From Xiphophorus maculatus (Eukaryota > Chordata > Actinopteri > Cyprinodontiformes > Poeciliidae): a DNA stretch of 64,000 bases. Below are positions 25,901 to 60,740 of the stretch, one piece after another. The notes beneath the pieces were generated by a model. It ran no database searches. It was not told the DNA's origin and worked only from the letters and a program-made list of their open reading frames with translations. The stretch is from the NCBI RefSeq assembly GCF_002775205.1, contig NC_036454.1, positions 13,660,882-13,724,881 on the forward strand, read 5' to 3'. Every line of letters starts with the position of its first letter. The first letter of the stretch is position 1. The position numbers were made by a program, and so were the translations under genes.

Positions 25901-28900
25901 TTCCACCGTCTGGACTCCCTCCTGAACTCTTGTGGCTGAAATGCACCGTAGCTTTGTTGGCAAGCCCGCTGAAGCAGGAGCAGGACCCTCTGCGAAAACA
26001 AACTCTGAAGGAAGAGAAGGGAGGGAGCTGTGGGTCAGAGGGCATGGGACCTTGTATAGGCTTGTTTATTATTGCCTGGCCACCCAGTTTGACAAATGCA
26101 AACTTCAAAATAGCAACAGATGTCTCTGTTAACATGTCTTCTATCATATTTATGTGAAAGGCCTGGGCAGTCTTGCCACCTTTGAAAAGGTCATAGTTAC
26201 GGATACCAAAAATAAGTAAGAACCTCTTGGCACATTGTGCTGTTTCAAGTTAGCCACTGTGTTTATTTTCTCCCTCCACGTGTCAGGACATTTGTCTGCT
26301 CTGCTAAAATGCGCTAAAGAGTTCTTTGAAATTTCCATTTTCAGCTGGAGAAGCAGCCACACACCCAGCAGACGATCTACGGCCTGCAAATAGGAAAAGA
26401 ATACGAAGTGCACATCCGCTCCAGGATGCAGGCCTTTGTGAAGTTTGGAGAGTTCAGTGACTCCATCTTCATTGAAGTTACAGAAATTTCCAGTAAAGGT
26501 GAGAGAGCCTTTTTAATTTAATTAATGCATACCTGCCTTATTACTTGCTAAGTTATTAAATTCACAAAAATAAAATATAAGGAATTTAATCAGAAATTGT
26601 GCTACATTTTGTTTTCAGATTCTACTGTCCCATTCACTTTAGTTCTCATTTTTGGGGTTGTGGGGGTCCTGATTGTCATCATGCTGATAGTCATTTCTCA
26701 GCAGCAAAGGTAAGAACCTTCTCTTTCTCTACTTCTGCTTTCACCTTAGAAATGTCCAATAATACTTTATGTGCAATATTAAGATGTTTTTTTTTTTCTT
26801 TCATGCACGGCAAAAAAAAAAAACATGCATCATCTTTACCACATGTTTCCCCCTAGAATGCATGGTGTTAATCATCTTACATTCTACTTTTTATATTTTA
26901 AAACTTATGAATCGGTTTATTTTGAATAAGTTTAAGCTGAGAAAATGGGGAAAAGAGACATAGAAAATTTGACTCTTTATATACTTTTTGAAGCGAACTG
27001 ATTACTGAAAGGGAAACCAAATGCTACAGTCATGTGAAATAATTTGAACACCCTATAGTCAGTCTGATCTTTGACATATCCATATTTTATATCCATTCTA
27101 ATACTAAAAAACTGAAGTTACAATTAAAATAAAAATATTTAGTAAATTATAGTAAAACCAATAATGACCAGATTTAAGGTAAATCTATCATTATTCATTA
27201 AAAAATTATAAAATTCATCAAAGTGGATTTTTAAAATAAAACTCACCACAAACAGATGAGAGTGAAAAACCTTTTGTAAGAGGTTTGTGTTAATTTTGAA
27301 AACCATACATGTGTGGAACATGTAGGGTTTTGATTCAAAGGGTTTTATCCAATTTAAAATATAGCAAAGAAATACTTTTGCAAAACACTCTGTAAATATT
27401 GCCTCCAAACACAGTGGCCCTGGAAATTTACAAACAAATCCTCCAATCAAAAACTTACTCTTGAAAATTTAATCTGTTATGAAATTTGAAAGCTGGTGTT
27501 GTACAGCTAAGAAAAGACAAAACAAAGTTTTCTTGTAGGTATAAATCATAAACTGCACTCACCAATCCAAATAAAAAAGTCACCCTTTGTTTTAAGATGC
27601 TCCAGTCAACATTGTTAACTTTATCACATTCTTCTGTCATTTCAGAATAATGATGATTCTCTTGCCACCTGTTCCTGCACCCAAAATCAAAGGCATTGAT
27701 TCAGAATTGTTGAAGGTATCGCATATATTCTTGTGTTTTCCTTTTTTTACTCTTTCGGTTTAATTTAAGTCTGTTTCCTTTTTCAAATACCATGCATGTT
27801 GTTTGCCAACAAATTTTGATGCCAAATTTAAATAATGTTCTGTTAAAGTGAAATTCATCCACTTGCTAGTTGTCAAAGCTGCGATACTATCCACATTTTT
27901 ACACGGCCATTTTTATTTGTGTATATTATTATTTATTTACATAATTCATTTACATAATAGCAAATCCATTGATATTACCAATCTGGGATTGGTAATATTA
28001 ATGAAAGAGACGGCATTCATTTATGCGTTGTTATTTAGTGAAGTGATTACTGTATTTATCGCCCGAAATGTTCGCGGGAGATTGTCACCAGCAACCCTCC
28101 TGACCCCACTAGGGACAAGGGTGTTAGAAAATGGATGGATGGATTACTGTATTTAAGGTGCTGCATAATTTTCTCGTTGTTGTTACTTTGATAAAAAATT
28201 GACTTATGCGTAAATACAAAGAAAGTCAAAGTAGGAAAATAGGATAAGCTTTGAAATAAATCATATACCATGAGATGCTACAGAGCAAATCCACCTTCTA
28301 ACAAAAGAAAAAAAATATGGGAATATAATGAATGATATGCAACACTCTGTCTATATGTCATCTCTAATATTCTGAAGTGAAAAAGATTGCTCTCAAAGCA
28401 ACAGCATGTAAATTTTCTAAAACATCTTTTCTGCATATTTGGTAAAATGATCATTATGTCGTGGCAGGATAAATATCAAGTAAGAGTTATATACTGCAGC
28501 TTTAACAGCTTTTGTCAATATTTTATATCTTTTGTAGAAGGGGAAACTGGAGGAGCTGAATTTTATCCTGAATGGTGGGGGTGTGGATGGCCTGCCAGCC
28601 TATGCAACAGATTTTTACCAAGAAGAGCCTTGGGTGGAGTTCATTGAGGTGGATGAGGAGGATGCAGAAGGTGGAGATAAAGAAGACAATTATAATTCAG
28701 ACACTCAGAGGCTCATTGGTCTCCCACACAGGAATGTAGAGGGTTTCAGAGCCATTAGGTAATTTAAAAATTTTCAGGTGAATGGATTGTTTCATGCTAA
28801 CTGGTATCATAGATTTGAAGTTATTTCCTCATTGTTTTCACCTTGGGTTTTTTATCTAGCCACCCTGACGATGACTCAGGCCGGGCCAGCTGTTACGACA

Positions 28901-29595
28901 CAGATCTGCCGGAACATTTGGCGTCCCTGCTGCCAGGCCAACCTGAGGACAACAAAACCTGCCTGGATGCCCCAGCTACAGAGATGGGTGAAAAGCCCCT
29001 CATCCAAACTCAAATCGGAGGACCACAGACTTGGATCAACACAGACTTATATGCCCAGGTCAGCAATGTTATGCCATCTGGGGGTGTTGTGCTGTCCCCT
29101 GGCCAACAACCCAAAATCCAGGAGAACACCTCAGGTTCAGAGAGGGAAACACAGAAAGGAGGAAAGCAAAATGAAGATGTTGAGGGCATCAAGGAGCAGA
29201 AGAGAAACGAGCCCCAGTTTCAGCTGTTTGTACTGGTTCCAGAGGGAAGTGGCTACACCGCCGAGAACAACACCCAGCAGACCAGCACTCCTCCCAGCAC
29301 TTCGGTGCCTGGGGTAGGGTACCAAACCATACAGCCTCAGCCAATGGAGACCAAACCTGCAGCCACAGGAGACACCAACGAGTCCCCGTATATTCTCCCC
29401 GAGCCTTCCCAGTCTCAGCTCTTTACCCCTGTTGCAGACTACACAGTGGTGCAGGAGTTAGACACGCATCGCAGTCTGCTCCTTAACCCGCCTCCCAGCC
29501 AATCTCCCTCTTTGTGCCAGCCACAGCATCCTCTCAAAGTCCCAATGCCTGTAGGGTACGTCACCCCAGACCTGCTGGGGAATCTCGCACCATGA
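10934..29595 (+). CDS. ghr: Growth hormone receptor, type I teleost form
   Basis: Coding exons: 10934-11048, 23589-23718, 23815-23981, 25592-25770, 26345-26498, 26619-26709, 27646-27715, 28538-28758, 28860-29595. All have GT-AG borders and matching phases, giving 620 residues. The product is a single-pass class I cytokine receptor that binds growth hormone and signals through JAK2/STAT5. Residues 1-27 look like a signal peptide. The extracellular part has three cysteine pairs (TDC/RCW, KEC/REC, PYC/DDC), then fibronectin-type domains ending in FGEFS (231-235), the fish version of the WSXWS-type motif. The membrane helix is at about 253-274, Box 1 is LLPPVPAP (284-291), and the WVEFIEVD endocytosis motif is at 334-341. 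Tail tyrosines include DLYAQVSNV. Six extracellular cysteines favour the type I receptor (ghra/ghr1) over type II. The start is the first ATG after the acceptor ending at 10929. A small additional exon inside the 12.5-kb intron cannot be excluded. Confidence 0.95.
11596..11627. repeat. Two perfect 16-bp tandem copies
   Basis: The unit GCAGTGGGTCTCAGAA occurs twice back to back without mismatch. Confidence 0.9.
11990..12370 (+). mobile_element. Degraded Tc1/mariner-like transposon
   Basis: The run from GGGTGCAAAGTATTATGCAG through CATGGAACAGTGAAGACAGT and on to AAAATCATTGAAAAAGCAGG follows the order seen in a common fish Tc1-like transposase gene. The frame is broken many times. Recognition is by memory of the family consensus. 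Confidence 0.35.
14427..14475. repeat. CT-rich simple sequence
   Basis: A pyrimidine-rich run of TCTC and TGTC units without an obvious function. Confidence 0.7.
15195..15297 (+). mobile_element. 5'-truncated LINE/SINE tail fragment, (GGAT)n-ended
   Basis: The run from TCGCCCGAAATGTTC through CCCCACTAGGGACAAGGGTG ends in repeated GGAT. The same element occurs at 28059-28141 and, inverted, at 46378-46480. TAAAAATATAGT lies on both sides (15183-15194 and 15298-15309), a likely target-site duplication. Confidence 0.6.
15558..15572. repeat. Short (AT)n run
   Basis: A short AT dinucleotide repeat inside ghr intron 2. Confidence 0.7.
16003..16030. repeat. Perfect 13-bp inverted repeat, 2-base spacer
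   Basis: ATTAATTAGTGCA at 16003-16015 is followed after two bases by its exact reverse complement at 16018-16030. It could extrude as a cruciform or be a mobile-element core; no function is evident. Confidence 0.85.
17485..17856 (+). mobile_element. Solo LTR of a retrotransposon with 5-bp target duplication
   Basis: The 372-bp segment begins TGTCAT and ends ATGACA, the TG...CA inverted ends typical of LTRs. It is flanked by identical ACCAG pentamers at 17480-17484 and 17857-17861. It is clearly richer in CpG than the surrounding intron and has an ATTAAA poly(A)-like signal near 17780. No gag/pol or second LTR is present, so it is best explained as a solo LTR left by LTR-LTR recombination. 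The style resembles fish Ty3/Gypsy-class LTRs, but the class is not proven by this sequence alone. Confidence 0.7.
19740..19925 (+). repeat. Copy A of a diverged duplicated block
   Basis: This segment and 21310-21495 share an ordered series of words in the same orientation: GGAAATTAGA, then a TTCCA(T/G)GTGTTGTT segment, then a run ending CGTTTTATCTCTGG or CCTTTTATCTCTGG, then GCTGAC followed by AAAAAATGAA, then a run near TACTGCACTA or GACTGCACCG. Divergence is substantial, so the copies are old. The unit matches no family I recognise. Confidence 0.55.
20560..21060 (+). pseudogene. Degraded Tc1-like transposase
   Basis: Conceptual translation from about 20775 gives TLCKAPLLKKKHV, then DLDKPVILGKYNLAR followed by an in-frame stop. 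This corresponds to the hxDxPxxxWxxIxWSDE region of Tc1 transposases. The upstream part (about 20560-20760) also follows the family order. Several frameshifts and stops make it non-functional. It lies between the two copies of a duplicated block. Confidence 0.55.
21310..21495 (+). repeat. Copy B of a diverged duplicated block
   Basis: Direct-orientation partner of 19740-19925, starting about 1.57 kb further on. Confidence 0.55.
22692..22749. repeat. Two 29-bp tandem units
   Basis: Two adjacent copies of a unit beginning AATGTCAAACTCAATATT, with two or three mismatches. Confidence 0.8.
23007..23036. repeat. Perfect 12-bp hairpin, 6-base loop
   Basis: AGGCTTATCTTT at 23007-23018 is mirrored exactly by AAAGATAAGCCT at 23025-23036. 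Confidence 0.85.
24225..24284. mobile_element. Fold-back MITE, perfect 28-bp arms
   Basis: Arm 24225-24252 (starting TACAGTACAGACCAAAAGTT) is the exact reverse complement of 24257-24284 around a 4-base loop. The arm sequence matches the terminal inverted repeat of a widespread fish Tc1-like family, and both ends carry the TA expected of Tc1 target sites. The element is reduced to its two termini. It lies in the ghr intron between the 23815-23981 and 25592-25770 exons. Confidence 0.75.
27026..27140 (+). mobile_element. Tc1-like terminal fragment
   Basis: Begins TACAGTCATGTGAAATAATT and continues TTGAACACCCTATAGTCAGT, a recognisable fish Tc1-family end. The relic may extend to about 27640, just before the Box 1 exon, but I could not identify the opposite terminus. 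Confidence 0.45.
28059..28141 (+). mobile_element. 5'-truncated retroelement tail with 14-bp target duplication
   Basis: An 83-bp copy of the same (GGAT)n-ended element as at 15195-15297. It is bounded by identical GATTACTGTATTTA at 28045-28058 and 28142-28155, the mark of target-primed reverse transcription. It sits in the ghr intron between the 27646-27715 and 28538-28758 exons. Confidence 0.8.
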
Positions 29596-29761
29596 GTGGA
29601 CAGGACCATTAGACTTTAACTACAGTTACAGGCTTATTGGACAGGACGTCAATATGAAGTCACCCTACCTGATTCCTGATAACCACCAAAAAAACTTAAA
29701 AACCTGCAGGACACTGGATGAATAAGTGTGTGAATTAACCAGATGATACAGAGGGGAGATA

Positions 29762-30180
29762 TACAGGTACATCTCAACAAATTAAAATGTAATTGAAAGT
29801 GTTTTTTCAGCAATTCTATTTAAGAAGTAAATGTAAAAAATTAAATAGTTTGATTTGACACAGAATGATATTGATCAAGCATTTGTTTCTGTCAATTTTG
29901 ATGATTATGTCATAGCTACTGAAAGTCAAAAATTTGGTTTCCCTGAAAATGTTAGCATTCTATATTTTCATTATTTATTGGCCTGATGTAATAATTTTTT
30001 ACAAACTAAACTTTGGATTGTCATTGCCTTTAATCATAAAACTTGAGAAACAAATGCAATATATATGTCTCTTTGTGTGTAATAAATGTACATAATATAT
30101 GAGGTACACTTAAATTGAATTGCTGAAACAAATTAACTTACTAATTAACTAAAGTATAGTAATTTATTGAGATGCACTAA
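29762..30180. mobile_element. Tc1-derived MITE inside the ghr 3' UTR
   Basis: Starts TACAGGTACATCTCAACAAA and ends with TAATTTATTGAGATGCACTA. These are near-complementary terminal inverted repeats of a fish Tc1-like family whose ends read TACAGGTGCATCTCAATAAA. The interior has diverged and has no transposase. It begins about 165 bases after the ghr stop codon, so it is probably transcribed as part of the mRNA. Confidence 0.6.
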
Positions 30181-31076
30181 AAACTGTACTCTTACATTAG
30201 TCCCCACTTAATCGCTGAATTTTTGGCCGAAACACACTAAGGGTAATAACATCACAAAAACATCACAAGCAAAATGCAAAGTTTGTATCAATGCATGATT
30301 GTAGTAAGTGACAAAATACCTATATATACAGTATGTGTGAAAAATTACCTGAGATTGCCTTACAGTCTTAATATTGAATGTGAAGTCAGTATATCAATGA
30401 GGAGAAGAGAAAGACACAGTAGCCATGTTTTTAACTACACAGTAATTCGGCTTTGACAGTACTTGTCTTTTTGAGGTTTAATGCCTATCACATTTACTAT
30501 ATTCCAAAGTTTCCTATTTCACCATGTTATACTGATAGTACTTCACAAGAGATATATTTTTATACAGAACACGAAACATTTGAACAAAGCAATGCAGATT
30601 TGAGTGTCTGTCTTTGTTTCTTTAAGAAAATAAAAGTTTTATCTTTTATAGTTTTTGGTTTTAGCTGCACCAAATGTCAAGAATTAAACCAAAGTTAGGT
30701 TGACCACTAAGGGTTTTTTAAGGGTCACTAGGTTCCAATCAGGAATGCAGGGAAATACTTGCAAAAACAAATGCAGATCATTTACATGAAAAGGAAACTA
30801 AAATACTTGACTTAATAATTCCAAGATTAATTTGAATAGATTTTGTTGGACTCGTTACACTGTTGAAGTTACTTTAACTAAAAAAAAGTAATTAAACTAT
30901 ATGTTCACATCAACACAGAACTTTAAGGGTAAGGGTTTATTTACTCCGATTTTCCTTACATTTGGGAACCAACCTTTTGCCTATATAGCGTCCCTCTTCA
31001 CGCTGCACTAGGGCAATAGCATGAGAATAACATCCCATTAGTAGATATAGCTTGAGAGTACCTCAGCTGTTTTCTC

Positions 31077-31098
31077 CATGCCCCAAATGTGGGGCATG
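31077..31098. repeat. GC-rich 8-bp hairpin in the ghr 3' UTR
   Basis: CATGCCCC and GGGGCATG flank a 6-base loop. In RNA this would be a stable small stem-loop. Confidence 0.7.
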
Positions 31099-34041
31099 AC
31101 TTCAACCTGAAATATTATTTTGCGGTAACCTAATAATATTCAAACATTATTTGATATCCTAGTTTTCATAGGGCAGTCTTCTGCTAATGGAAGGCAAAAG
31201 GTGGTTCAACATGTGTCACAGAACCAGCAGCAGCCCCAAGTTGCTTGACGGTACATTGTTTTGATTCATTAAACAAAAGTAAGGGAACATTCATGTTATG
31301 AAATTATTGCATTTTAAGCTTTCTGCAGAGGAACTGTGTTCTACATTGTCATTGCAGAGACAGCAACTGGAATAAGTTGACTGTGAAAGTGTACCATAGA
31401 TGTTACTAGCTTACACAGTACTTATCTGCCACATTCACTATGTAACAACCTATGTCTGTCGGAGTATTATGGTTTGTTTAATTGCTATGGTACTATGCTA
31501 GTGTGGTTTAGATTTCTGCATATCAGTTAACAAAAGGTACCTCTGTTTGCTATGTATAGATGAATTGATTTATATCTTCTCTGTGCCAACAAACAGTTAA
31601 AAATCAACACAAAACATGCATGCAGTACATAAAAGAACATTCCCCATTGTAATAAGATACTGTCCTTAATGTTTCCATTTAAGAAAAAAAAAGATTTTCA
31701 TTTTGTGTGCTGAAAATTATTTGACATTTTACTACAATTTTCAAATTCAAAATACTTATCAGCATATTTTGAGCTTGGCATTCATAAAAAACAAGTTGTA
31801 GACACTCAACAAATTGGAATCTTGTTTGCTTAGCTTCAGGCTTCTTGTAGATGAAATATTTAAGGCAGTGTTTATAAAGAATATTTTGCCTAATCCAGCA
31901 TCTTCTGTTTGTTTTCACAAATAATGTTTAACGTAGTAATTCCCCCACTTTGAGACAGTAAAGGCTATACCAGTTTCTGTTCTACTCCTAATGGGATTCT
32001 TGAAAAGAAATCAGGTGCCTCTTATGTTTCATCCCATGTCTCGACTTAATGATTCAACAACATGCTCATCGCAAGCATAATATGAGTACTGTACTTATGT
32101 AACATCTGTAACTTACTATAGTGGCTGTCCAATCAACATTGCTTTGTGCCAAGACAAAAGAACATCAGGACTGATAGCCTCAAAATGACAGATACATTTG
32201 AACTAAATTACAGTAATAATAAACCTTTTTAATGATATCCAAATTTATTAACCTGCACCTGGAACTTCACCGTGAACAAAACTTTCCTAACAGTTTAAAA
32301 AAAAACACAACCAGTCTGTGATTTATGCTGCTTTCTTGCCTTTCTGGACGTAAATATTCTGAATATATGGATCAATGTATTTTTTTGTATCAATCGGATC
32401 TACAAAGAGAAGTTTAAAATGTGAATTTGATGACAATATGCCATTTCTCTTTCAGAAATACTCAGTTCTCTGCTGCTCCTGCCATTATGTGGATGATACC
32501 AACAAAATTTGTGCTGTCGCAAAATGTCTTAATATGTCTGCTAGTGCTGTGCAAATATAAAGGTTTATGTTGAGGATTATACTTTTACACGGTGATGCTG
32601 CTTGGTGCATGTATTTCTCTTTTACTCAGTTTTTTATGGCTGAGTTCAAGTCAAGAAAGAGCAGTAATCAGTGTCAAATTTTTGTGATAGTAAAGTGTGG
32701 GTTTTGTTTAGGTATCTTGTTTGTCACAGTGTCCAGTGATCACAGAAGGTTCTCACTATGTTCACATAGCAAGAACAGAGATTGAAGGACTTCTTTTTTA
32801 GGTAAAACTGTGAATGTGTAACTGGAATACACAATGCAATCATAAAACTGAGGAAACGTTTTAAGCAGTGTTTGTAATAGTGGTGGTGAGATGAAGAAAT
32901 TAGGAGGTGCTTTTTATTCTTCAAGCCAACTGTGCAGATGTTTACTACCTTAAGTATATATTGTTCTTTTTGCCATATCGCTCATTTCACAATGGCAGAA
33001 TTGGTAGTTTTTTATTTGAAGGTTATAAATGTCAAGGACACTTTAGAGGAAGCACTTTGTACACATAAAGCATATATGTGATATTTAGAAATAGTATTTA
33101 GATTTTATATTTTTTGCTAAATCAAGTGTGTGATTTCTATGTTACTACAGAAAAGCATTACGTTTTCTGGTCAGCACAAAAATCAAACTTTGAGGAACCT
33201 TCAAAATGAATAAGCTTTGATTTTGTTATACAGAGTTTATGTTTATATAAAAAAAGCGTATTTCACACTAACAGATTGCTAGATTGTTGTACTGTAATGG
33301 AGTATTTAATGTTTCATATAGAGTTTATAGGCGATTAAACCAGATAGAACATTTATAAAGTCATATTAAATATGTGTTGTGTGATATACTCATCTTTTTA
33401 ACTTTATGTTCCTGTTTGTATCTCTGTGTGATTTCAGTTTTTCATGACCACAAAGAACTTTATGACAGGGGTGAATTATTTTTGCAATGATGCATGTTGG
33501 CCTGCAGCGTTGAAGGCTGACTTTTGTCACTCTCTCTAGCCTGGAAGTAATTTTGCTGGAATCTTTGGTCGTCAGTTAATGTTTTTGAAGCTATCAGCAC
33601 CATACCCTGTGCCGTTCAGTTTGTTAAGGAAAGTGCTTAATTCTCCACTTGACTTGAGGATTTACTTCAAGTCAGATGCTGATTTGAGTCAATCCTGTTT
33701 TTTAGTTTTTACAATATTCCATGGCTCCTGTCTGTCTTACTTCCTGTATGCCCTCTGCCATGTGTCATTCATCCCCCAGCAAACTGGAAACAAACGACAA
33801 ATTAAAATAATAACGTAGTCTAAGTTGATAAACCGGTCGATACTGGCTTTATTAATTCTTATGACTCCGTTTTGTTGTCTTTTTTTTTTACACCTGAGTT
33901 CTTTTTTTTCTTTTTGCATCCGAGAGCCAATGTTCTTGTGTAAAAACTGCTGCTTTCCCTAGGGCCAAGAAATGTATTGATCCTTGAGGATTTGTCTGTT
34001 TTGTTCTCTTTTTGGTGTTGTATGTGCGATCAATAAGTTCT

Positions 34042-34047
34042 CAATAA
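34042..34047 (+). terminator. Probable distal ghr poly(A) signal
   Basis: AATAAA within TCTCAATAAAATAAATATAA, the last good signal before the intergenic region. Confidence 0.5.
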
Positions 34048-34637
34048 AATAAATATAACATCATCTTGTCCATTTTTTGGTAACCTTTAAAAATGGCTTG
34101 GGGGGGTTTATCTTAAATAAACACACTTTTCTTTGTAACTTTGAATTCTAATTTTATTATACTACTGCCATTGAAAGTGCAATTGTTTTTTTATTTATTG
34201 ACTCTTCTACTTATTGTTCTAAGTAAATTGCCTTTTGCACTAGTCCCCAAAAGACTCTCTACACTTTACATGGCAGTTAGGGACTTTTAATATTTCTATA
34301 AATAAAGGTCTGTGGGGCAGTAGTACATTGAAATGGCTCCACAGTGTCCCCTAAACTTCCACTCCATCGAGATGAGTTTCTTGTGGAAATTTGATAAAAA
34401 TTGTAAATTTAACAGTGAGTCAATCACTATATATGTTTGTGGCTGACTTAAAGTCTTCATTGTATATACTAAAGGTTACTGCTGATTCAAAGTGATCAAA
34501 AGCTTGAACAACATACAGAAACGTATTAGGGTAGCCTAAGTTTGCTATTTTGGATCAAAGCTGACATTTTGTGAACTCACTTGGGCCCGCTAAAAATTTA
34601 AACTCGGCCTCTTAAAAAAGTAATTTACATATTTGAA

Positions 34638-34687
34638 GGCAATGTTGATTAAAAGTTTTGTAGGCAATATTGATTAAAAGTTTTGTT
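34638..34687. repeat. Two 25-bp tandem units
   Basis: Two adjacent units, GGCAAT(G/A)TTGATTAAAAG continuing to TTTTG, with one mismatch. Confidence 0.8.
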
Positions 34688-35310
34688 GTTGACTTTGCAC
34701 CAATCCCTAACAGTGGAGAAAAAAAACTTCCTCCAAACATATATTCATTAAGTTTTCACTGGACGCTGCATAAACTGGATCCAAAGCAACTTGCAGAATT
34801 TTTTAAAAACAGTCCATTCTAGATTGTAGTCCTCACCAATCCTTTGCTGCCAAAGGGGAAGTTGATTTATGTTCATAATGCAAGATCAAATTTCACATGA
34901 TCTTAATTTTTTATTTGATTTATTGTTGTCACTGTGCACATGTAAAATGAGCTTAAAGCCAACTCCAAAAACAGTGCAAACAATGTAAGAAATATATACA
35001 AAAATGGCTGCTTTATAATAACAAGCCTTTACTGTATATAACTGAATGCCATTTTTAAACTTGTCTCACTTTTTTTACTTCCATGAATGACAAGTCCCGG
35101 TGTGTCAAAGACCTCAGTCATGACGCAGGCTTAAACACTGCCAAGGTACAAGGGCCATTTAAGCCACTTTTAAGTTTAAGTTAATTGTTGTACATAGCCC
35201 CTTCCTAAATAATGACTTAAGTAAAAAACAAATCCCTCCTTTTTTCTCCAAAAAATTACTTAGGCCATTACTTTAGAAAGGTGACGAAATGTTAGCTAAG
35301 TTAACTGTAA

Positions 35311-35332
35311 ATATATATATATATATATATAT
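35311..35332. repeat. (AT)n microsatellite
   Basis: An uninterrupted AT dinucleotide run. Confidence 0.85.
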
Positions 35333-36714
35333 CATTATTTTTGGTCCTTTATTGACAGTTGAATCAATTTAGGACTCTTCAAATTATGTACTGTTACTTT
35401 CATAAAAGCACACAAGCAGCATGCACTAAGATTCACACACAGTTTCAGAAAAGGGTTCTTCATGCAAATATGCCCTTTTGGAGTTCAAATCCAGTCCAGT
35501 TGATGTAGATTGTGCCTGAAGAATGTATTGCATGCGTACGATAACTGAAGGGTGGATGTTTGCACGCTCATAAGCCATACAGAGGACCTTCTATGTGAAT
35601 TAGCTCACAAGTATGTGATTCTCTGTCTGCTGCTTCTGATGGGGTAACTAAGGGAGGAAAAACCGGTTGCAGAAGCAGTTGTGCACCGAGGGGAAAGCAT
35701 ATTGGACAATTAAGACAGAAGCTGTGTACTGCGCTTCTCTGTGTGGGGTTGATTGAATCAGAGAGGTGGCCACTCACAGCTCTTTGTCTCAGGACATTGC
35801 AGGTAATTGCCCATAAGTCACCGTTCCTCTGTACTGGATCTTCAGTCCAATTACGCCCACACAAGCTCTGCCTCATTTATTACCTCCGGTTGCTTGTTGA
35901 CCTTTTTAGACATACAGCCCAACAGGCAGTCCAGCCACATAACACTGAACACAGGGTATTGTACTCACAGACAGATATCAATGCTTTAGTGATTGCATGG
36001 AACAAATTTGCTTAAGATGCTCATTCTATCTGGCATCATGATGATTTTTACTCCATTTACAAAAAATAAAATAAAAATACTGACAATATATTTTAACCTA
36101 AATTGCTATTCAAGGAAGATGGTTTTCTGACTTGAGTTCTCAAATTCATGAAGAGGTTTTACTAATATTCAGCCATTATGTTGATCAAAAACAAACGTGT
36201 AAAGCTGCAACTGGTCATATTTGATACAGATTTGTTTCCATAAACCTGTAGCAGTTTTCTGAAATAAAGTGTTGCATCCGACACCACTGCAAGCAATGAC
36301 CGTGAATATTCTTATTTTTTCCACATGAAATTCGACGTGACATGTTTGTGCAAGACAGAGGTGACCCTTGAAATGAAATAAAATGAGTCACTTTGGGTAA
36401 TGACCTGAAATGATGAGGCTCTGTATAAACAGTAATTTTGTTTGTGGCTCATAATAACTGTGGTAGGATCAGGTCAGCAAATAGAACGAACAAGGTGGTT
36501 TTATGCTGAGCAGATGCTCAATGCCATCTGCTGATAAATTTGGGGAATGGCATCATTTCTTTTACACACATATCTCAAATATATTCTTGATAGAACAAAA
36601 TCATTACATCAGTGAATAGAAAAGGAGGTAAAATGTTGGAGACAACAGTGCTGCAGTCAATCTGTTGTTATTGCAGAGCAGAACTACTGACAAAATCTCA
36701 AACTTTAAAAAATG

Positions 36715-36930
36715 CATTCAGTGCTTTGTTGAAGTATTCACACCCCTTGAACTTCTATGTATTTGTCACAACAAAGCCACACAATTTTATATTTTATGTT
36801 TTCAAATTATTTTTATGAGATCATTGGTTTTTTTTTCACAAATTAGAATCTAAAAAGTGTGGCATGCATTCCTAATCGGGCCCCCTTTCCTTGATACCTC
36901 TAAATTAATGCAATGCTTTTTTTTTTTTTT
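36715..36930 (+). mobile_element. Tc1-like terminal relic
   Basis: Reads GAAGTATTCACACCCCTTGA, then TTTGTCACAACAAAGCCACA, and later AAAGTGTGGCATGCATTCCT and CCCCCTTTCCTTGATACCTC. That is the order of the same Tc1-type family as at 3249. It lies just beyond the selenop poly(A) signal. Confidence 0.6.
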
Positions 36931-37020
36931 TACATATTCTTGAATATTGTCAAGAACAGGCTCTTCACAATATTCTTTATCAAGAACATAAACACAAATT
37001 ACAAAAGTAAATTGACCATC

Positions 37021-37026
37021 TTTATT
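37021..37026 (-). terminator. selenop poly(A) signal
   Basis: On the minus strand this reads AATAAA, about 60 bases after the second SECIS hairpin. It places the mRNA end near 37000. Confidence 0.65.
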
Positions 37027-37074
37027 AAACTTTCTATAGTATCATGTCCAAAAACCCCAACACAATGCAACTCT

Positions 37075-37140
37075 CTGTGCTAGCATCAGGATTTCCTGGT
37101 GACTGTTATCTTCCCACAGAAACCGTCATTAAGCACATTT
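37075..37140 (-). promoter_or_regulatory. selenop SECIS element 2
   Basis: On the minus strand, ATGA (37129-37126) is followed after 13 bases by AA in the apical loop and then by TGA (37088-37086). Between them TTTCTGTGG pairs with CCAGGAAA (one bulged base), and GG/CC closes the base. This gives the AUGA/GA non-Watson-Crick core and AA loop of a form 1-like SECIS. SELENOP mRNAs characteristically carry two SECIS elements; they recruit SBP2 and the Sec-specific elongation factor to recode UGA. Confidence 0.75.
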
Positions 37141-37539
37141 CATCACATCAATTCACTCTTGTTATCCCTTTCTCTCCATCCAAACAATATAGTTATTTTT
37201 TTAAGATATCTTGAATAAATGTTAGTCCGAAATATTTAAAATAAGGGATGTTAAAATCATGGATGTTTTTAGTGAGAGCAAAACAGAAAGAAATTCATGG
37301 CAGTAACTGTTATTTTTTCAGGAGTGAGCAATAACAAAAATCTAAACAATAAGACTGCTTTGTAGCATTTGTTTTTCCAGAAATTAACTTGTGCTTTCTG
37401 TTAAAACAACTCCACAATGTCGTTTTGTTTTCTTGTAATCTCTAAATTATCATTTTGTGCTTTTTTTCTACTTGCAGATGTTTTCTTCTCTGAAGTATAA
37501 AAGGTTTATAATGTTCTTAAACTACCTCCTTCTCTCTCA

Positions 37540-37605
37540 CCTGCCAAACATCAGACAGACGCCACTAGAGCATAGTTTACGCATCTGGTTTCATAACGGA
37601 TGGTG
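37540..37605 (-). promoter_or_regulatory. selenop SECIS element 1
   Basis: On the minus strand, ATGA (37594-37591) is followed after 12 bases by AAA and later by TGAT (37553-37550). CAGATG pairs with CGTCTG directly above the quartet, and ACTA pairs with TAGT around a 5-base loop, giving the extra apical helix of a form 2 SECIS. It lies about 290 bases beyond the TAA stop. In mammals SECIS 1 of SELENOP is the one needed for reading through the clustered C-terminal UGA codons. Confidence 0.85.
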
Positions 37606-37884
37606 AGAACAACATGAAGGAGTCAGTTTATGGACATAATATCCCATTAACCACCTGAGAGAGAGGGGGAGGCAATCCATGGTAAAACAAGGCAAGTTAG
37701 TTGGAACAGCATACTTTTATCAAATGTGAAATCCAAAAATTTGAATATTACAGCTGGACACATTTCATGTTCTGATCTTTTCCAGCATTTAAATCAAGGA
37801 TTGACCTTCCCCCTCTCCCAGGGAAATACTTGTTGGTAATAAGAACACTCGGCCCTAGCATTGATAGCTGACATAAGTTCCAGC

Positions 37885-40087
37885 TTACAGCTGCTCTCAT
37901 GCTCAGCTCCCAACGCCGGAGGGTCAGGCTCATTGGTCTGGCTGAGGCTGCTGTCATTCAGCAGAAGGCATGCGTCACTGTCAGGTCTCCCTGACATCGG
38001 CGGCTGCCTCGCTCGTGAGGCCCTGTCACTGTCAGGAGGCCGGCAGTCCCCCTTCACAGTGTCAGAGCCCGAGCGACTGTTCGCTTCCCGCCTCGCCAAA
38101 CATCCTGCGTCAGTGTCAGCATCAGCTGGCTTTGGGAGCAGTTTCGTTTTCGGAGCCTGCTGTTCCCTGTCAGGTGAACTTTGACTTTCACTTTCCCTTT
38201 TCTGCCACTCAAGGCCTAACAGGGGCTGCTATGGCCTGCTGTAATAACTGCTCTGTGTCCACTGCTTGCTGTAACTGCAGTGAGTCAAAGCCATGCTGAG
38301 CATGATCCTGCCTAACCCCCTGCTGACTTTGCTCCAAGTCAGAGCCAAAGCCATCACCATTGTGGTTACCATGGTGATGACCATGATGATCAGGGTGGTG
38401 CCTATGGTGATGATGACCATGCTGACCGTGATGGCCATGACCATGATGGCCATGACCATGATGACCATGACCATGATGACCATGACCATGATGGCGACTG
38501 TGGTCAGGTTCTGTGTTGTCTCCTACAGCTGCAGGTGTATCTGCATCAGGCTGTGCATTTGGTGTTGCTCTGCATTCCTCTGGAGTCTCAGCAGTCTGCG
38601 AAAAAAATCAGAGAATGCAAAAAGGGTTTTATTTTTAATTTCCAGTACTCACAACATGTTCCAGTGAAGTCATTTCATCTCTTTTACCTCATGTGAGCAG
38701 GCGCCACACTTGCGATTGCAGTAGGCTTCTTTGATCGCACTCTCAATATGGCCATGTCCAATAACAGAATAAGGAAGGGAAATATGGTCGGTAAGACGGC
38801 CGCACCTAAGGTTACAAAGATTAAAAAAAACAACAACAAAAAAACATTGTGAGACAAGGGATAGTGTTTAACTCCAAACTCCTCCATTCTGTAAAATACA
38901 TTTGAAACACATAACAAACCTGTCATAGATGATGAAGTCGTCTTTCTTTCCATTCAGGGTCTGCCAAACATCAGGTTGTTGTTCACCCTGTTTGTACAGT
39001 GAGATCTTATCCGACAGCCTCTGAGCCAGTAGGGGGTGGAGCCGCTGGGCTTGCTCCCCCTGGTGGTTGATGACCATGTAAACCACGTCATTCAGTCCCT
39101 GAGTCTCCAATTTCTGGCGCAGACCATCAATTCTGTGTGGAAAATGCACAACGGAACGTAGAGTTGATTTATATTAGAAAGTACTATGTTTATTAAGAAC
39201 GTAAGAAAGTTGTGTTTGAATATTCATTCCCTTGAATATTCACTTCTTGGACAAAGGACAATTATTTATTAATTTTTTTCAGAGGGGTGTAATTTTATTT
39301 CTTTAGTTAATATTTTATTTTATTTTATTTCAGAACTTTATTGAACCCCTTTTATCCAGAATTGTGCCTTCGAACACTAAATGAACATGTCTTCAAATAA
39401 TTGTATGGAATCATCTACCTCTGGTTTGATAGGATTTGTAGTCTTACTGTTAGAATTGTATTAAATAGGTTATACCTGCTACTTATTTTTGCGGCAGCCA
39501 TGATAACCTACTGAACTGGCTGCTTGTACACCCGGCCAAACAGCGTCAGGGGGTGTTCTCCTAGTATTTTCATCTTAAAAGTGGATTTGTAAGCCTTTCC
39601 AGACTGACAGATCTCAATGACTTTGTTTCTTATCTGGTCTTGAGTTACTTTAGATCTGGTCACATGTTGCTTTTTGAGATCTTTCGACCTATACTTAATA
39701 TAAGATAGGTTCTACTTAAGTGACTTCTTCATTATTGCTGACCTTCCACATAAATTAAATATGGCAGCAGTCAGGATTTCAGTCTGAGTGCTTTTTTTCT
39801 GAGTTGTACTTTGCTGCTTACTTTGGTATTTTTTAATTAAAAGTGAAAGAAAATAGAGCATAACAAACTGGGGCTGATCCATACCTGGAGGCCTGCACCA
39901 AGCAAAACAGTCAGGTGGCTTGTAACAGGGCAACCACTGTTACTTGGCCTGCTGTGCCCTTCATCGGTTCCACCTCCCCGATCATCCATGTCGGTGGGGG
40001 CTGACAGCGAGGCCCGCCGCCCTCACTCTCTGCACCGCCCCCATGGAGCAGGCAGAGCGTGAGGAGCAAGCTCAGGCGCACCCACAT
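37885..40087 (-). CDS. selenop: Selenoprotein P with 17 selenocysteine codons
   Basis: Minus-strand coding exons: 40087-39885, 39132-38920, 38805-38688, 38595-37885, with GT-AG borders and matching phases, giving 414 residues if UGA is read as Sec. SELENOP is a secreted, mainly hepatic glycoprotein that carries selenium to other tissues. Residues 1-19 form a signal peptide. A thioredoxin-like domain carries the redox motif ULFC with Sec59 (UGA at 39913-39911), the same residue number as human. The next exons encode [22 protein letters not shown] and [10 protein letters not shown]. The last exon has a His-rich segment (about 213-257) and sixteen UGA codons (Sec 307, 314, 320, 336, 338, 340, 356, 366, 368, 383, 385, 392, 400, 402, 409, 411) before a TAA stop. 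The total of 17 Sec equals that known for the zebrafish Sec-rich paralogue, so this is the long (a-type) gene rather than the short one-Sec form. Standard ORF finding truncates or misframes it. Confidence 0.95.
37897..38211 (-). other. Sec-rich C-terminal domain, 16 in-frame UGA codons
   Basis: UGA codons begin at 38211, 38190, 38172, 38124, 38118, 38112, 38064, 38034, 38028, 37983, 37977, 37956, 37932, 37926, 37905 and 37899 on the minus strand, with no TAA or TAG until 37887-37885. Typical local contexts are SUCUHURRM, ASUQUQ and TUQUR, which correspond to SUCC- and UQ-type contexts of other SELENOP proteins. This domain supplies selenium to cells through lipoprotein-receptor-family uptake in mammals. 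Sixteen UGA with no TAA or TAG over 105 codons is very unlikely in a decayed frame. Confidence 0.9.
38359..38493 (-). repeat. His-rich coding minisatellite in selenop
   Basis: The 15-bp unit CATCATGGTCATGG(T/C), encoding HHGHG, is repeated four times at 38493-38434. It is followed by degenerate units and His runs down to 38359. In SELENOP the His-rich segments bind heparin and metal ions. Such a repeat is prone to length change by slippage. Confidence 0.85.
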
Positions 40088-40114
40088 CCCTCTGGCGCCT
40101 CCTCCCTGCCCCAG

Positions 40115-40633
40115 TCTGAAAGTACAGAAGGCAGGAGGGGTGAAATTAAGGAAGTGAAAAACAAAATGAGAAGAAACAATTTTGTCAAACTCAGCAGAAA
40201 AAAGCTAGATGAATGCATATGAAATGAAATTGAACCCACTTCAATTGCATTAAAACGTTTAAAAGCACTGAAAGATTTCCTCAAAGTTTCACTTTACCTC
40301 TATGTTTATAGGTGAAGTTTAAACTGAAACAAGGAGAAAAAAATCTATCTCTAATGTCAAGTTTTCACTTCTTTTCTACGTACACGATCGTCTGAAAGTT
40401 ATATCAGTGCAAAAATTACAAGATCTAAAAAACTAAATTATGTGCACTTAGCAAAACCTTTGCAATGTGAAATACATTCCTTATGTTAAGATTGTTCTAT
40501 TCATACAGGATAAAGATCAAAGCTAACTCAAGCCAGAAGTTGTTTTTTTGGGAGGAATCGGCCACTTACCCTTTGTTTAAAGTAATGCTTTGCCTCTGCT
40601 GTGCTCTGCTTTCTCTGCAAGTCTTTGAACAAA
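40115..40633 (-). other. selenop 5' UTR exon 1 and intron 1
   Basis: A noncoding first exon at about 40633-40570 ends in a donor reading AAAGG followed by GTAAGT (GT at 40569-40568). The acceptor TTTCAG then opens the coding exon at 40115, leaving 28 bases of 5' UTR before the ATG at 40087. The start site is placed about 30 bases after the TATA box and is approximate. Confidence 0.6.
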
Positions 40634-40660
40634 AACATGCCTCCTCCTTTGCTCCCCCCC

Positions 40661-40667
40661 TTTTATA
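40661..40667 (-). promoter_or_regulatory. selenop TATA box
   Basis: Minus strand reads GAGTATAAAAGG. It lies about 90 bases upstream of the 5' UTR exon donor, fitting a short first exon. Confidence 0.65.
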
Positions 40668-40698
40668 CTCAGCCTGTTGTTTTTCCTCTGTAGATGGA

Positions 40699-40710
40699 GG
40701 ACAAAGTTCA
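40699..40710. promoter_or_regulatory. HNF4-type (DR1) site in the selenop promoter
   Basis: GGACAAAGTTCA fits the HNF4 consensus and lies about 35 bases upstream of the TATA box. Human SELENOP is known to be driven by HNF4-alpha with FoxO1 in liver. A GTCAACA word at about 40725 is a weaker forkhead-like candidate. Function is inferred. Confidence 0.5.
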
Positions 40711-41844
40711 GTTCCCTCTGCTGATGTCAACACTTTTCTCTGGTGAAAAAAGTCACAGTGCATGAAATCCTCTAGTTAAGAGGAAACAGAGCATGAAAAA
40801 TATTTTGCAGCAACTGAAAATTTTGAGGAAACAAATGTGTGTGCAGAAAAAACATTTTTGCTTGACTTGTTAATGTATTCTATATCAGCTCTAAAGAAAG
40901 AAAAAGGGATTAAATTGTATTTTTATTTTATTTTTTTTTAAATGAATGTAAAATAAAATTTTGATTAAGACCTGAGGAATCATATATTAATTTCTTGCAG
41001 CAGTGGAGAAGTGAAAAGAACATTCTGGAGGCCGTCCAGAATGTTTCCAGATAAACACAAGTGGAAGGGGGTTTCGCAATATGCACAAGTTGCTTTGCTT
41101 TAGCTGTCACTGGAACAAATGCTTCACTTTAATTCACAGATGTAGCCTGTAAACAAAGTATACATTTATAGAATTGCACAGACTGCTAGATGTCTGTGAA
41201 GAACTCAACTGCACATTTTACTTATTGGAAAATTTGTTACGTAAGGCTTAATATGGAGGCTAATAAGAGAATATCAAGGCAATAAACTGATGCAAAGCAG
41301 TAATCTCATTGACACTGAAAGATAATATTATATAAAGTAGCTGTAAAGACTATCACTATGCAGTCAGGCAATTTCATCCCCCCACCTATGAAGGACACCC
41401 AACTGACAGTGGAAGTGAGAACACTGCTTGGAGATAAATGAAGACAAGAACAATTTAACAGCGTAATCTTAACTGAAAGCTTACAATAGTTTAGATTTAA
41501 CTTTTTTCTGGAAACTTAAATAACCGAGTGGTCTGAAACATTAACCAACCCTAAGACACTGCAACTGGCTTAAAATCCAGTAGACATGACTCGGATGACT
41601 GAGAATTATACACAGAACCTTTCCAAAGCCAATGTTTACGTGTTTTGAGGATCACTAAACTGGTCTAACACCAAACTGTGAAAAGGTTTCACTTAGCACA
41701 GTTAGTGAAACCTTAGCTCCAAATGAAGAACCAAATGGATCCCCTCACATATAATTTTTAATCAAGATAATTGGAGGGTCTGAAATTAATTGATTACAAT
41801 CCATTTTATGTAGACAAAAACACCAACATTTTCAAACAAGTAAT

Positions 41845-44801: not shown

Positions 44802-47800
44802 ATGATGGCGGCGGGGGCAGAGGTGGAGGTGAATGGAGGCAGCGAGTACCCGGGGCTCTACAAAGTCATGATGGACAAACTTAACGAACAGCGACAATTG
44901 GATCAGTTTACAGATATCACTCTCATAGTGGATGGTATGTACAGTTGTAGATTTATATCTTTTTTCTATTTCCACACTGCCATGCAGTTCAAAAAGGTAA
45001 ATTGCTGTAGCTTTATTTTGTAATGTCCAGTTGAAGCTGTTTTTGTATTATTATAAAGTCAAGTTTGCTGGCATTTTATCAAACTGTCACTGTTATTCTG
45101 GTTCTGTGAAGAAAACTGAGCTGTATAGTCATTGTTGGGCTTTACACAGACCCCTGTATTTTTGTGTTTGAGTCACATTTGCATGTCATCTGTTCTGTGG
45201 GCATGGGTACTATTCCAAAATATATCTTATTGAAAGCCAACTAAAAGTTATAAAATGCGTCTTCCAGCTGTGGTTACCCAAGTGTTTCCTGGAAATTATT
45301 TGTATGGTAAAACGCTATTATTCTGCAAAGTTAATTTGCATATCGGTTGCTTGTTGCAGGACACCACTTCAGAGCTCATAAAGCTGTGTTGGCAGCATGC
45401 AGTCAGTTTTTCCACAAGTTCTTTCAGGATTTCACCCAGGAACCTCTGGTGGAGATCGAAGGTATTCAGTGTTTCTGTTAAATCCCAGTTAAAGAATGAG
45501 CAGCCATGCCTTCACATAGTAGCAAAGTCAACTTTGAAAGTGAAACCTGTGTATGTTATTATTACGGTTGCAGGTTTTGCTCTGGTAGATAAATGATGTC
45601 ATAGCATTTTGTAAATGAGGTAAAAAAAGCATGCTAACTATGAAAACAATAGCTAGTATTTTTGTTCCTATTATAAACTTTTAGGTGAACAAAAATTTAT
45701 CTTTTTTTTTATAAGATACAAAAATGCAGTTAGATGTTTTGTATTACATGTGTTTCGTATTACATACTCACTGGTCCTCTGACATTTTTTAGGAGTTAGC
45801 AACACAGCGTTTCGCCAGCTGATGGAGTTCACGTACACAGCCACACTAGCGATATCTGGGGAGGAAGAGGCGCTCGATGTGTGGAAAGCTGCTGAATACC
45901 TTCAAATGCAGGAAGCCATCAAAGCACTCAAGAAGTAAAACATAAGCAGAATAACCAGTCGTCTTGTACTGATAGACTCTCATGCCTGAGTGATGATCAT
46001 TAAATAACAGTGTGATTTTTTTTCTTTTTGAAGAATAAATTCCTCAACGACAACAAAGAGCATTGCTAAGAAGAGGACGATTGCAGAGACGTCTAATGTG
46101 ATTACAGAAACCTTACCGACAGTGGAGGGAGAGCAGGTTGGTGTTTATGTGTAATTCTGGTTAAAGGTGTGCATACATTCATCAGTGTGTGCACAAGTTC
46201 AAATTTACTGGTGATGTTGTTAAACATGATTGTAATGTAGTTAATTCATCCTTTTTGTGCAAAACAGCTAGTCCACTAACAGGTAACGATGCTACCCTGC
46301 TTTAATTTACATTTTTTCCCCTTGATTTTCCAAACCTTTTTCTTGCTTTTGTGCCAAATAGCTCAAAATCTCATCTGGCCATCCATCCATCCATCCATTT
46401 TCTGTACACCCTTGTCCCTTAGGGGGGTCAGGAGGGGTGCTGGTGCCTATCTCCAGCTAAAGTTCCGGGCGAGAGGCGGACTCTGATTTGGCCATAAAAC
46501 ACAACATTAGAAAAATGGCAAATCACAATATTATTGTTGAATATTGCAATATCAGTTGTGATAACCCAAATTCTCACAGTTCTTGTTCTTTTACATCATC
46601 TTGACAACTTAGTCATTCTCCTTGTGCTTTAGCATTGTGTCACTAATGTAGGCATTAAAGATAATGAAAGATCATCAGAGCTGGAAGACGCTGACTTTAG
46701 AGCAAGACCTATTTTCTTGGTTGGCATCTTCTCAGACAGTGTTGACTGAATTTTTTTTTTATGTGGACAGTGACACTAGAGACAATTAGTGGTACCTGAG
46801 ATTTTCTTTTGAACACCCTCACTAACTTCCTTTTACGAAACTTTTCAGAAGGACGATATTCTCAAACACACAAATACTGGGATTTGGAGTGGTTAACTTA
46901 GGCTTACATAAGGCTTGTGGAATGGCCTTCACCTAAACTCTGCTCTCTGCAAATCAATCAACCAGTTTAAATGAACTCTGACATTTTTGAGGAAGAGTAG
47001 GCCAATATCTAGCCAAAAATATACCAAAAACAACAAAAAGTAGTCAAGTCGCAGCTTGCTAAAGAATATTTAATCAAATATTAATGGGCATATTGTTTAT
47101 GAATATTTGATTCTTTACATACAATTGTTATGCAGTTAAGAGTAAATCTATAGTTTTTTCAACTTTTTACAATGAGCTATTGTTTGCAAAAATCTCCAAA
47201 GTTGTTGCTTGTGACATAATTTCACATTGGAAATACAAATACATTAATAAAAGCCATAAGCGTATGACATTTAAGCTAGATGATTACCTTAATTAAAGGT
47301 ATGGATTAAATGTTTTGTTGTCCTCTAGGTGGAGATTGAAGTGGTGGAGACCGGAATGGAGGTGGTGGTGGATGGAAAGACTGCTCAAGCTGCATCAGAT
47401 GACTCTGCTTTGGCTCTTCTAGCTGACATAACTAGCAAATACCAGCAGGGGGAGCCAACAATTCATGTGATCAAGAAGGATGAAGAGGTATATATTTTAT
47501 ATTATTAATTTCTTAAATATGCATATACTTGTCCTTGGGAAAGCATTCTCTACAAATATCAGTGTTTACTTTACAGGAGGTCCTGTATCAGGAGGAAACC
47601 GTGACAGCCTCCAAAGTACTGGAGAACGTTGAAGTCGTAGAAGTCCAGATCTCCCAAGGAGACATCTTCCGCTGCAGCAAGTGCGACCGTAGTTTTAAGC
47701 TGTACTATCATCTCAAGCAGCACCTGAAAACTCACCTGGGTTCTATGGAGAAGCCTCATGTGTGTAACCACTGTGGCAAAGCTTACACACGGGAGGGCGC

Positions 47801-50133
47801 CCTGAAGCAGCACATCAGCACGTTTCATTTTGATGCAGAGGAACTGTCTCGAGGGCAGAAAATTCAAAAGAAAGTGCACATCTGTGAATACTGTAAGAAG
47901 CACTTTGACCACTTTGGCCACTTTAAGGAGCACTTACGGAAGCACACTGGTGAGATTTGAAATATGAAACCAAAAAAGCTCAATTTAAGTTACTAATTTT
48001 ACCTGAACTCTATTCATAATTTCTTATTTATACAGCCATTCTATAATTATATATGCAGCTTTAGCATTTTTGGGCTTTTATATTTTCAGGTGAAAAGCCT
48101 TATGAGTGTCCAGATTGTCATGAGCGATTTGCAAGGAACAGCACATTGAAGTGCCATATGGCCGCCTGTCAGAATGGAGCAGGAGCCAAGAAAGGACGAA
48201 AGAAGCTCTACGAATGCCAGGTACAGCGTGCCAATTATTTTTTCCTTTGTTAAAACAATGTTTTAATATTTATTTATGTAGAAAGAAATAATGCTCATAC
48301 AACTGCCGCAGAAACCTCTGAATCTGTAAATCTTTGATCTGCTGTTGCAGATCTTTAGCTGGTTCAAATCTTTCTTTATTATTAATTATAGTTATTAGAA
48401 TTATTTTTTTCCTAGTTTTGGCAGAAATCGGAAATGTTTATTTTTTCAATAAAACGTTTTAATGGCAAAGCCATTTAACCAAAAAGAACAAAGATTTTTC
48501 TCTAAAACGGCTGAAAGCTACAGAGTCGTCTGTCTCAACACACAATGTCTAGAGACACAATAAAATCCTTCATGTTTAGGATCTGAGATATCAACAATTA
48601 AACACAACTGAAAACTCTTTTCAAAGACATTTCAATAACGTGTCTTTTTATTGTTTTTATTTTCAATGAGAGTCATTCAGAAAAATAAACAATAAAGGTG
48701 CAATTTAGTTTTGTTGTACCCTTTCAATTCTTTGAAAGCTTCAAACAATTGAATTTATTAGTATCAGAGACATCACCACAATGCAGTCAGTGTTACACAG
48801 GAATAACAAGATTTTATTATTTGAATAAATACAAAATGACTACAGTATTGATATTTCAAACTGCCTTCTCCATTTCATAGTGACGTTTAGTAAGACTGGT
48901 ATTGTTAGTTCGGTTAGTGTTACTAGCCAATTACCAGTTAGCAGTTAGCTGCTGTCAATTTTTTTCCTGATACAGCATGTTCAATAAAAAAATACTCTTC
49001 AAAAAGTTTAAATACATCAACATTGCAGTTGTGAGTTTAGCTTCTTGGTTTCTCCTGAAGTTTCACAGAAATGGAGGCCAGAAGAAACAGTAAACATGCT
49101 CCTGTAGAAGATAGCGTTTTTGTTTTAGAACTTTTAACTGATTTGTGTTCTCAGACTTCATTATTAACACTGCACTAATACTGAAAATAGCTTTTTTCTG
49201 TCTGTACAACTTCAGTAACCATGGGGCATTGTCACAAAATTCAGTACTCATTTATTTGTCAGTGCATCTCTCATTTATTATTTTAGCATTGCTAATGCAC
49301 ATTTATGAATATAGTTAAATCGGCTGTGTATACAAACATCCACAAACGTTAAAAAACAAAATATTTTAATCTTTTTTGCACCAGTATTATTGTACGGTAA
49401 TATAATTAAGCATGGCTGCAAGTGTTCACTAACCTTAACACATTTAGATTTTAAATACAGGTCATACTAAAACATTGTTTTGCGGTGTAAACAAGTTGAA
49501 TAGTGTTCTTTATACTTTGCTTTTGCAGCAGAAATGCAGAACATGCCAGTATTAATTGGTTCAAATCTTTAATTTATCATTAACTCTTCAAACTTTTTTT
49601 CCCATCAGGTCTGCAGTAGCGTGTTTATAAGCTGGGACCAGTTCAAGGAGCATCTTATGTGCCACACAGGGGACAAGCCAAACCATTGCACCATGTGTGA
49701 CCTATGGTTCACTGACGCCAAAGAACTTAAAACGCATCTCAAAGACGTACATTCTATTGAGGATAAGTGTATGGAGCAGGTGGTCCTCACCGACTCGGCT
49801 GCAACTGCCGCTCTCACCATAGCGACACAAAGCATAGGAGGCACTGAAACCGTCCTGCTGGACGATGGCATTCACGTCGAACATGTTACGGTGGAGCCTG
49901 TGGACGTAATGCAAATGGAGGAGACTACAACAGTCGTAGTGGAAGATGGAGGAGTGGGGGGGATATGTGAGGAGGACCTGGAGAGACTAAAGCAGGCTGG
50001 GTTGCAGATCCAAGTGGTCCATGTGAACACCGCTTCAGTTGATGAGCACCAAGTGGTCAACTCTGAGGTGGAAGTAGAGCTTGAGGATGAAATTGTGAAC
50101 CTAGAGGAAGCTGAACAAGCAGTAGCTGTATGA
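44802..50133 (+). CDS. znf131: BTB and zinc-finger protein ZNF131
   Basis: Coding exons: 44802-44934, 45360-45461, 45793-45934, 46034-46136, 47329-47487, 47577-47949, 48090-48220, 49609-50133. Phases agree throughout and give 555 residues (human about 589-623). The N-terminal BTB/POZ domain (about 20-130) contains FTDITLIVDG, HKAVLAACSQFF and EPLVEIEG. A basic KKRTIAETSNVI segment follows, a possible nuclear localisation signal. DDSALALLADITSKY is a strongly conserved ZNF131 signature. Six zinc fingers lie between about 246 and 430; finger 4 ends H...C rather than H...H. The C-terminus is acidic. The protein is a nuclear DNA-binding transcription regulator that modifies estrogen-receptor signalling in mammals. 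Two ATGs (44802, 44805) are adjacent; the second has the better Kozak context. The donor after the 46034-46136 exon (GTTGGT) is weak. Confidence 0.95.
46378..46480 (-). mobile_element. Inverted copy of the (GGAT)n-tailed retroelement
   Basis: Starts with repeated CCAT/ATCC, then CACCCTTGTCCCTTAGGGGG and a GGTGCTGGTGCCTATC segment, and ends at GGGCGAGAGGCGG. It is the reverse complement of the elements at 15195 and 28059 and extends further into the body. It lies in a znf131 intron. Confidence 0.65.
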
Positions 50134-60300: not shown

Positions 60301-60740
60301 TCCCTGAGGCATGCCAGAGGCTCATCAGGGGGATTCTACAGCCAGTCCCATCGGACCGCTATACAGTGGAGCAAATGGTGGGTTGTGAGTGGCTGCTCCC
60401 TGTGGAATTCCCATGTGCCATGGAGCCTTGTAAGCTAGATCCATCTCACCTTGCTGAGAGCAAACCAGCTGAACTGCTGGAGGAAGAGCTGGAGGTAAAG
60501 GCTGCATTAGAGACTCTAGGAATCACTTCAGAGCACATATTCAACAACCAGGGAAAAGACTGCAGAAGCTCCATCACTGGGGTCTATCGGATTTTGCTAC
60601 ACCGGGCTCAGAAGAAACGGGTGGTTGAGAGGACACCAGCGGTCACACAGAAAGTCAGGCCAACTACAACAAGTAAAAAGGAGCGACTAAAAGTGTATCG
60701 CAGTTTGCGGCACACATCTAAACTGTGTGTGGTTCTGTGA
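57367..60740 (+). CDS. nim1k: Serine/threonine kinase NIM1
   Basis: Coding exons: 57367-57653, 57827-57939, 58938-59059, 59141-59287, 59982-60740, giving 475 residues (human 436). NIM1 is an AMPK-related kinase activated by LKB1. The divergent Ser/Gly/Thr-rich N-terminus leads to [10 protein letters not shown]. The kinase domain has a glycine loop IGCGNFSHV (116-124), catalytic VAIK Lys139, HRD (230-232), DFG (250-252), the T-loop [14 protein letters not shown] with Thr265 as the expected LKB1 site, and [20 protein letters not shown]. The C-terminal region keeps the NIM1-specific [20 protein letters not shown] and ends [10 protein letters not shown]. All catalytic residues are present. The start ATG at 57367 begins MTAV as in human NIM1, two bases after a splice acceptor. 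The longer N-terminus accounts for the extra length. Confidence 0.95.

Follow-up and report, generated by a model that had tools for sequence, protein, structure and literature searches.

Selenoprotein P is a blood protein that carries selenium. For fish, the literature gives a SelPa with 17 selenocysteine (Sec) residues in zebrafish, the number that the initial annotation had quoted (PMC2397514; PMC6301783), in carp and two pufferfish (PMC4699779) and, as SelPa1, in trout and salmon (PMC6301783), while the fish annotated by 2015 had SelPa proteins with 15-17 Sec (PMC4699779). Other reports add counts of 18 Sec for Xenopus, 28 UGA codons for a sea urchin, and up to 132 Sec/UGA for bivalves (PMC8230778). 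In salmonid SelPa, as described in PMC6301783, a single Sec within a UxxC motif is encoded in the first coding exon and all others in the last, and the 3' UTR of SelPa1 carries two SECIS. Teleost SelPb is described as a shorter protein with one SECIS and with 1 Sec in zebrafish or 1-4 in salmonids, its UxxC Sec likewise lying in the first coding exon.

The gene described here, selenop, lies on the minus strand of a 64,000-nt stretch of Xiphophorus maculatus DNA (the window; Table 1). Its reading frame opens with the ATG at 40087, closes with a TAA whose final base is 37885, and yields a product of 414 residues; the coordinates and counts of the initial annotation were exact. The four coding exons, of which the first is coding over 40087-39885, join in frame and all three introns have GT/AG ends. 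The frame contains 17 UGA codons, and the first in-frame UAA or UAG is the UAA stop itself. The first UGA corresponds to residue 59 and the later ones to residues 307, 314, 320, 336, 338, 340, 356, 366, 368, 383, 385, 392, 400, 402, 409 and 411, so that codons 307-411 (n=105) hold 16 UGA, as a recount agreed. None of 20,000 sequences drawn from a first-order Markov model of the Sec-rich domain's own dinucleotides had at least 16 in-frame UGA (mean 3.3). The base following the UGA is C in 11 of the 17 codons, G in four, and A and T in one each. UGA 1 is followed by the exon end 26 nt further on, a spacing in keeping with the intron position that PMC5133445 treats as conserved. All 16 remaining Sec codons sit in the last coding exon, with the UxxC motif in coding exon 1; the same layout is described for salmonid SelPa. 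Upstream, the probable 5' UTR exon was taken to begin some 30 nt downstream of the TATA box; the transcription start is a putative one.

Table 1. Features of the selenop locus and its neighbourhood (positions within the 64,000-nt window)
Feature	Position	Strand	Basis or remark
TATA-box-like sequence, TATAAA within GAGTATAAAAGG	40662..40667	-	sequence
Probable 5' UTR exon	40570..40637	-	ends at 40570, donor GTAAGT
Exon with start codon (ATG 40087) and UGA 1 at 39913 (residue 59, ULFC)	39885..40115	-	sequence
Signal-peptide-like hydrophobic start of protein	start-codon exon, 39885..40115	-	by eye
Predicted 12-pair hairpin, nine bases past UGA 1	39901-39890 + 39125-39114 (spliced)	-	one arm in each of coding exons 1 and 2
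Coding exon 2, SelP_N domain	38920..39132	-	ORF and Pfam
Coding exon 3, SelP_N domain	38688..38805	-	ORF and Pfam
Last coding exon: His-rich region, then Sec-rich domain, TAA	37885..38595	-	ORF and Pfam
15-base tandem repeat encoding His-rich stretch	38423-38495	-	between SelP_N and Sec-rich domain
16 UGA of last coding exon	first 38211, last 37899	-	
Predicted stable hairpin with last two UGA and UAA stop	37851..37925	-	-37.0 kcal/mol
SECIS 1	37540..37602	-	RF00031, 32.9 bits, E 0.00084; gathering score 35
Probable SECIS 2	37076..37137	-	RF00031, 20.7 bits, E 1.9 (weak); gathering score 35
AATAAA polyadenylation signal	37021..37026	-	49 nt past SECIS 2
Growth hormone receptor domain PF12772 (GHBP)	28538-28762 + ORF 28819-29595	+	
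BTB domain	45347-45457	+	
C2H2 fingers	ORF 47517-47960	+	clear
C2H2 fingers	ORF 49573-50133	+	weak
Protein kinase domain (Pkinase)	58937-59287 + ORF 59982-60740	+	

When the translated protein was searched against Pfam with Cys in place of Sec, it matched PF04592 (SelP_N) with 278.9 bits (E 3.7e-83; profile positions 1-232 of 234; cut-off 23.2) and PF04593 (SelP_C) with 44.7 bits (E 1.7e-11; positions 32-121 of 133; cut-off 28.8). Five Sec (392, 400, 402, 409 and 411) come after an ETUQUR segment, and the same number is given for vertebrates beyond the ApoER2 site in PMC4699779. A sequence search of the PDB gave just two matches, each with a His-rich end (E 0.53 and 0.78), and a search for related loci in viral and prokaryote contigs gave 2 and 101 pattern matches, respectively, none of which was confirmed. 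SelPb was considered as an alternative identity. It shares with the gene found here a UxxC Sec encoded by coding exon 1, but SelPb is shorter, with few Sec and one SECIS, whereas the present gene has 414 residues, 17 UGA and two SECIS-like elements, and this identity was ruled out on length and UGA number.

At the level of individual residues, the protein was compared with published human and rat SELENOP peptides (from Table 1 of PMC8230778). Eight human and five rat peptides went into the first alignment and the rat 239-260 peptide into a later one, to the exclusion of overlapping peptides and of two human ones whose printed letter count differed. Near the first Sec, the protein is identical to human at 17 of 31 residues and to rat at 17 of 24, and the published human peptide 38-68 agrees with the earlier claim that the first Sec is residue 59, as in human. 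Identity in the C-terminal part is 30 of 75 aligned positions with human (X positions included) and 23 of 62 with rat. All ten human Sec align with a Sec (59, 336, 356, 368, 385, 392, 400, 402, 409 and 411), while Sec 338, 340, 366 and 383 align with human Cys 302, 304, 328 and 343, numbers counted from the printed peptide positions. Ten of these sites fall within the rat C-terminal peptides, which have Sec at seven and Cys at three (366, 383 and 385). Sec 307, 314 and 320 lie upstream of the human peptides used. They pair with rat Sec, Cys and Cys in two cuts of a longer stretch (11 of 36 and 7 of 31 identical), and the longer rat alignment includes one rat linker Sec that has no counterpart here. 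The alignment thus places 14 of the 17 sites firmly and 307, 314 and 320 weakly, because another cut, of the rat 252-278 peptide, paired these three with Ser, Sec and Cys (4 of 23 identical). The Sec count is 17, compared to 10 in human SELENOP, and two papers attribute much of the fish-mammal difference to Sec-to-Cys changes (PMC2397514; PMC4699779), a view that the pairing of sites fits.

Two SECIS-like elements share the gene's strand and are placed, as expected, after the stop codon and before the poly(A) signal. The initial annotation had proposed a SECIS search but named no such element. Their E-values in Table 1 come from a search of 4227 Rfam families against 36400-41000 (4.6 kb) with matches kept to E 10. 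SECIS_1 accounts for two of the 15 matches listed for this region, the remaining 13 all staying below half of their gathering scores. At gathering scores, Rfam gave no match in the whole 64,000-nt window, neither element reaching 35; among the 11 matches listed in a whole-window scan SECIS 1 is present (E 0.012) and SECIS 2 is absent. By eye, each element has an AUGA...UGAU core and apical A's. Extended by 10 bases per side, both form a small extra apical helix and a type 2-like fold; the trimmed SECIS 1 alone does not fold as a SECIS. PMC5133445 assigns the two SECIS of fish selenoprotein P to type 2. Against 200 shuffles, the extended folds have z-scores of -1.89 for SECIS 1 (12 of 200 as stable) and -2.11 for SECIS 2 (5 of 200), and no SECIS-spanning window is among the 14 lowest z-scores listed of 108 mRNA windows. 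A loose SECIS text pattern matched 118 and 131 times on the window's two strands and is useless as evidence. The spacing is 282 nt from the stop to SECIS 1, 402 nt from SECIS 1 to SECIS 2 and 49 nt from there to the AATAAA, compared to 254 nt before SECIS 1, 358 between and 63 after in human, where the SECIS limits are drawn differently (PMC9337670). The size of the 3' UTR is similar as well, with 843 nt in human per PMC9337670 and 858 nt from stop to AATAAA here. Human SELENOP has two SECIS; one clear and one weaker SECIS-like element are found in this gene.

The neighbourhood of the gene was examined through its protein domains. Those with GHBP, BTB/C2H2 and Pkinase domains we take to belong to ghr, znf131 and nim1k, and human 5p12 presumably has the same order of these three genes around SELENOP. 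The neighbouring domains fit a vertebrate SELENOP locus. Synteny of SelPa is stated to be kept from fish to human in a passage of PMC6301783 that gives no neighbour names. In human, CCDC152 is antisense to SELENOP and covers its 3' UTR, as described in PMC8266573. Here, CCDC152 was not recognised on the plus strand between the GHR end and SELENOP (29600-38600), and a short CCDC152 motif, translated from an siRNA target printed in PMC8266573, gave no match; both are weak tests. The three plus-strand frames of 29598-38600 had no Pfam match other than a weak LYRM_2 (E 0.055). Elsewhere in the window, both strands of 24201-24300 (GC 0.39) fold strongly into a hairpin (-49.6 and -48.6 kcal/mol), and a match to mir-4703 there falls far short of its gathering score; the element is perhaps a small inverted-repeat transposon. 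Within the intron after coding exon 1 (39133-39884, minus strand), a stretch is reminiscent of a Tc1-like transposase relic; the three frames of this intron gave only SapB_1 at E 1.2 in Pfam, which did not bear out a transposase.

Taken together, the two Pfam domains, the UxxC at residue 59, the SECIS-like elements (the second weak) and the locus context uphold the earlier identification as selenoprotein P, and it is close to certain that the gene is a full-length, intact fish orthologue of vertebrate selenoprotein P (SelPa/SELENOP1). The main competing explanation is a decayed or short form, in which translation gives nothing beyond the N-terminal domain and the UGA-rich exon is a non-coding tail, either of a pseudogene or of a UGA-terminated protein. 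The standard code does read UGA as a stop, translation by that code would end after residue 58, and the literature describes short forms in mammals that probably terminate at UGA codons. However, the 105 codons contain 16 UGA and no UAA or UAG, the UGA-rich exon matches SelP_C, its Sec align with Sec or Cys of the human peptides and SECIS-like elements are present. This evidence shows that the frame is kept, and a short form is very improbable. Less credible still is a ribosomal frameshift at a UGA into the +1 frame, which is stop-free over the Sec domain for 144 codons (38228-37794, minus strand) and would give an alternative tail, a kind of event to which one section of a ribosome-profiling study is devoted (frameshifting at UGA/Sec codons; PMC9599142), since 14% of 5000 synonymous redraws were equally without a stop in that frame over the domain, making its openness ordinary.

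For the intact orthologue, the mode of expression may be sketched from what is known of the family. SECIS-bound SBP2 would bring eEFSec and Sec-tRNA to ribosomes at UGA codons, with SECIS 2 acting mainly at a slow first UGA and SECIS 1 at the later ones. Such a division between UGA 1 and the later UGA codons is described in PMC5133445, and UGA recoding is generally inefficient, the C-terminal UGA codons of SELENOP being a notable exception according to PMC8704476. Termination at UGA codons may yield shorter forms. By family analogy, the secreted protein would deliver as many as 17 selenium atoms to tissues via receptor uptake, and its thioredoxin-like N-terminal domain, with the UxxC motif, would have a redox role. 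The statement that the gene requires 17 recoding events holds for the full-length form only, and Sec insertion itself is a prediction from the DNA.

RNA structures in SELENOP mRNA that act on initiation and on UGA redefinition were reportedly described by Mariotti et al. in 2017. In the mRNA predicted here, the lowest z-scores of 108 windows were -4.17 (stop), -3.79, -3.72 (His-rich repeats) and -3.57 (UGA 1). The stop hairpin, folded in another cut, was the only stretch to keep its value (z -4.15, none of 200 shuffles as stable). UGA 1 with 79 nt, a longer cut at the 12-pair hairpin of Table 1, was unremarkable (z -1.43, 20 of 200 as stable), a stretch partly overlapping the second-ranked window (38120-38040) had a z-score of +1.55, and the start codon stretch (40115-40040) one of -0.43. 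Out of 1500 synonymous redraws, those at least as stable numbered 42 for the 44-nt and 83 for the 80-nt UGA 1 stretch, 13 for the stop and 18 for the start; the corresponding numbers for 1500 codon permutations were 33, 79, 15 and 9. These four stretches are leads only, because they were picked after looking at the scan. On both strands of the window, eight of 6394 fixed 80-base windows lie at -36.9 or lower; the stop hairpin is off this grid and appears there as -33.3. Based on these folding models, the stop hairpin could be a functional RNA element, additional to the structures described before in SELENOP mRNA, at which ribosomes slow down so that the final Sec insertions compete better with termination; we consider this unlikely. 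The hairpin possibly has no function.

The gene is an ordinary fish orthologue, as 17 Sec had already been published for the selenoprotein P of several fish; zebrafish SelPa and the SelPa1 of trout and salmon share this number, by comparison with their published descriptions. Existing knowledge is left unchanged, fish SelPa with 15-17 Sec being well described (PMC4699779). What is added is the confirmation, in this fish and at the locus expected, of a full-length 17-Sec selenoprotein P; with the exact exon, UGA and SECIS coordinates given here, there is no need to truncate the gene at residue 58.
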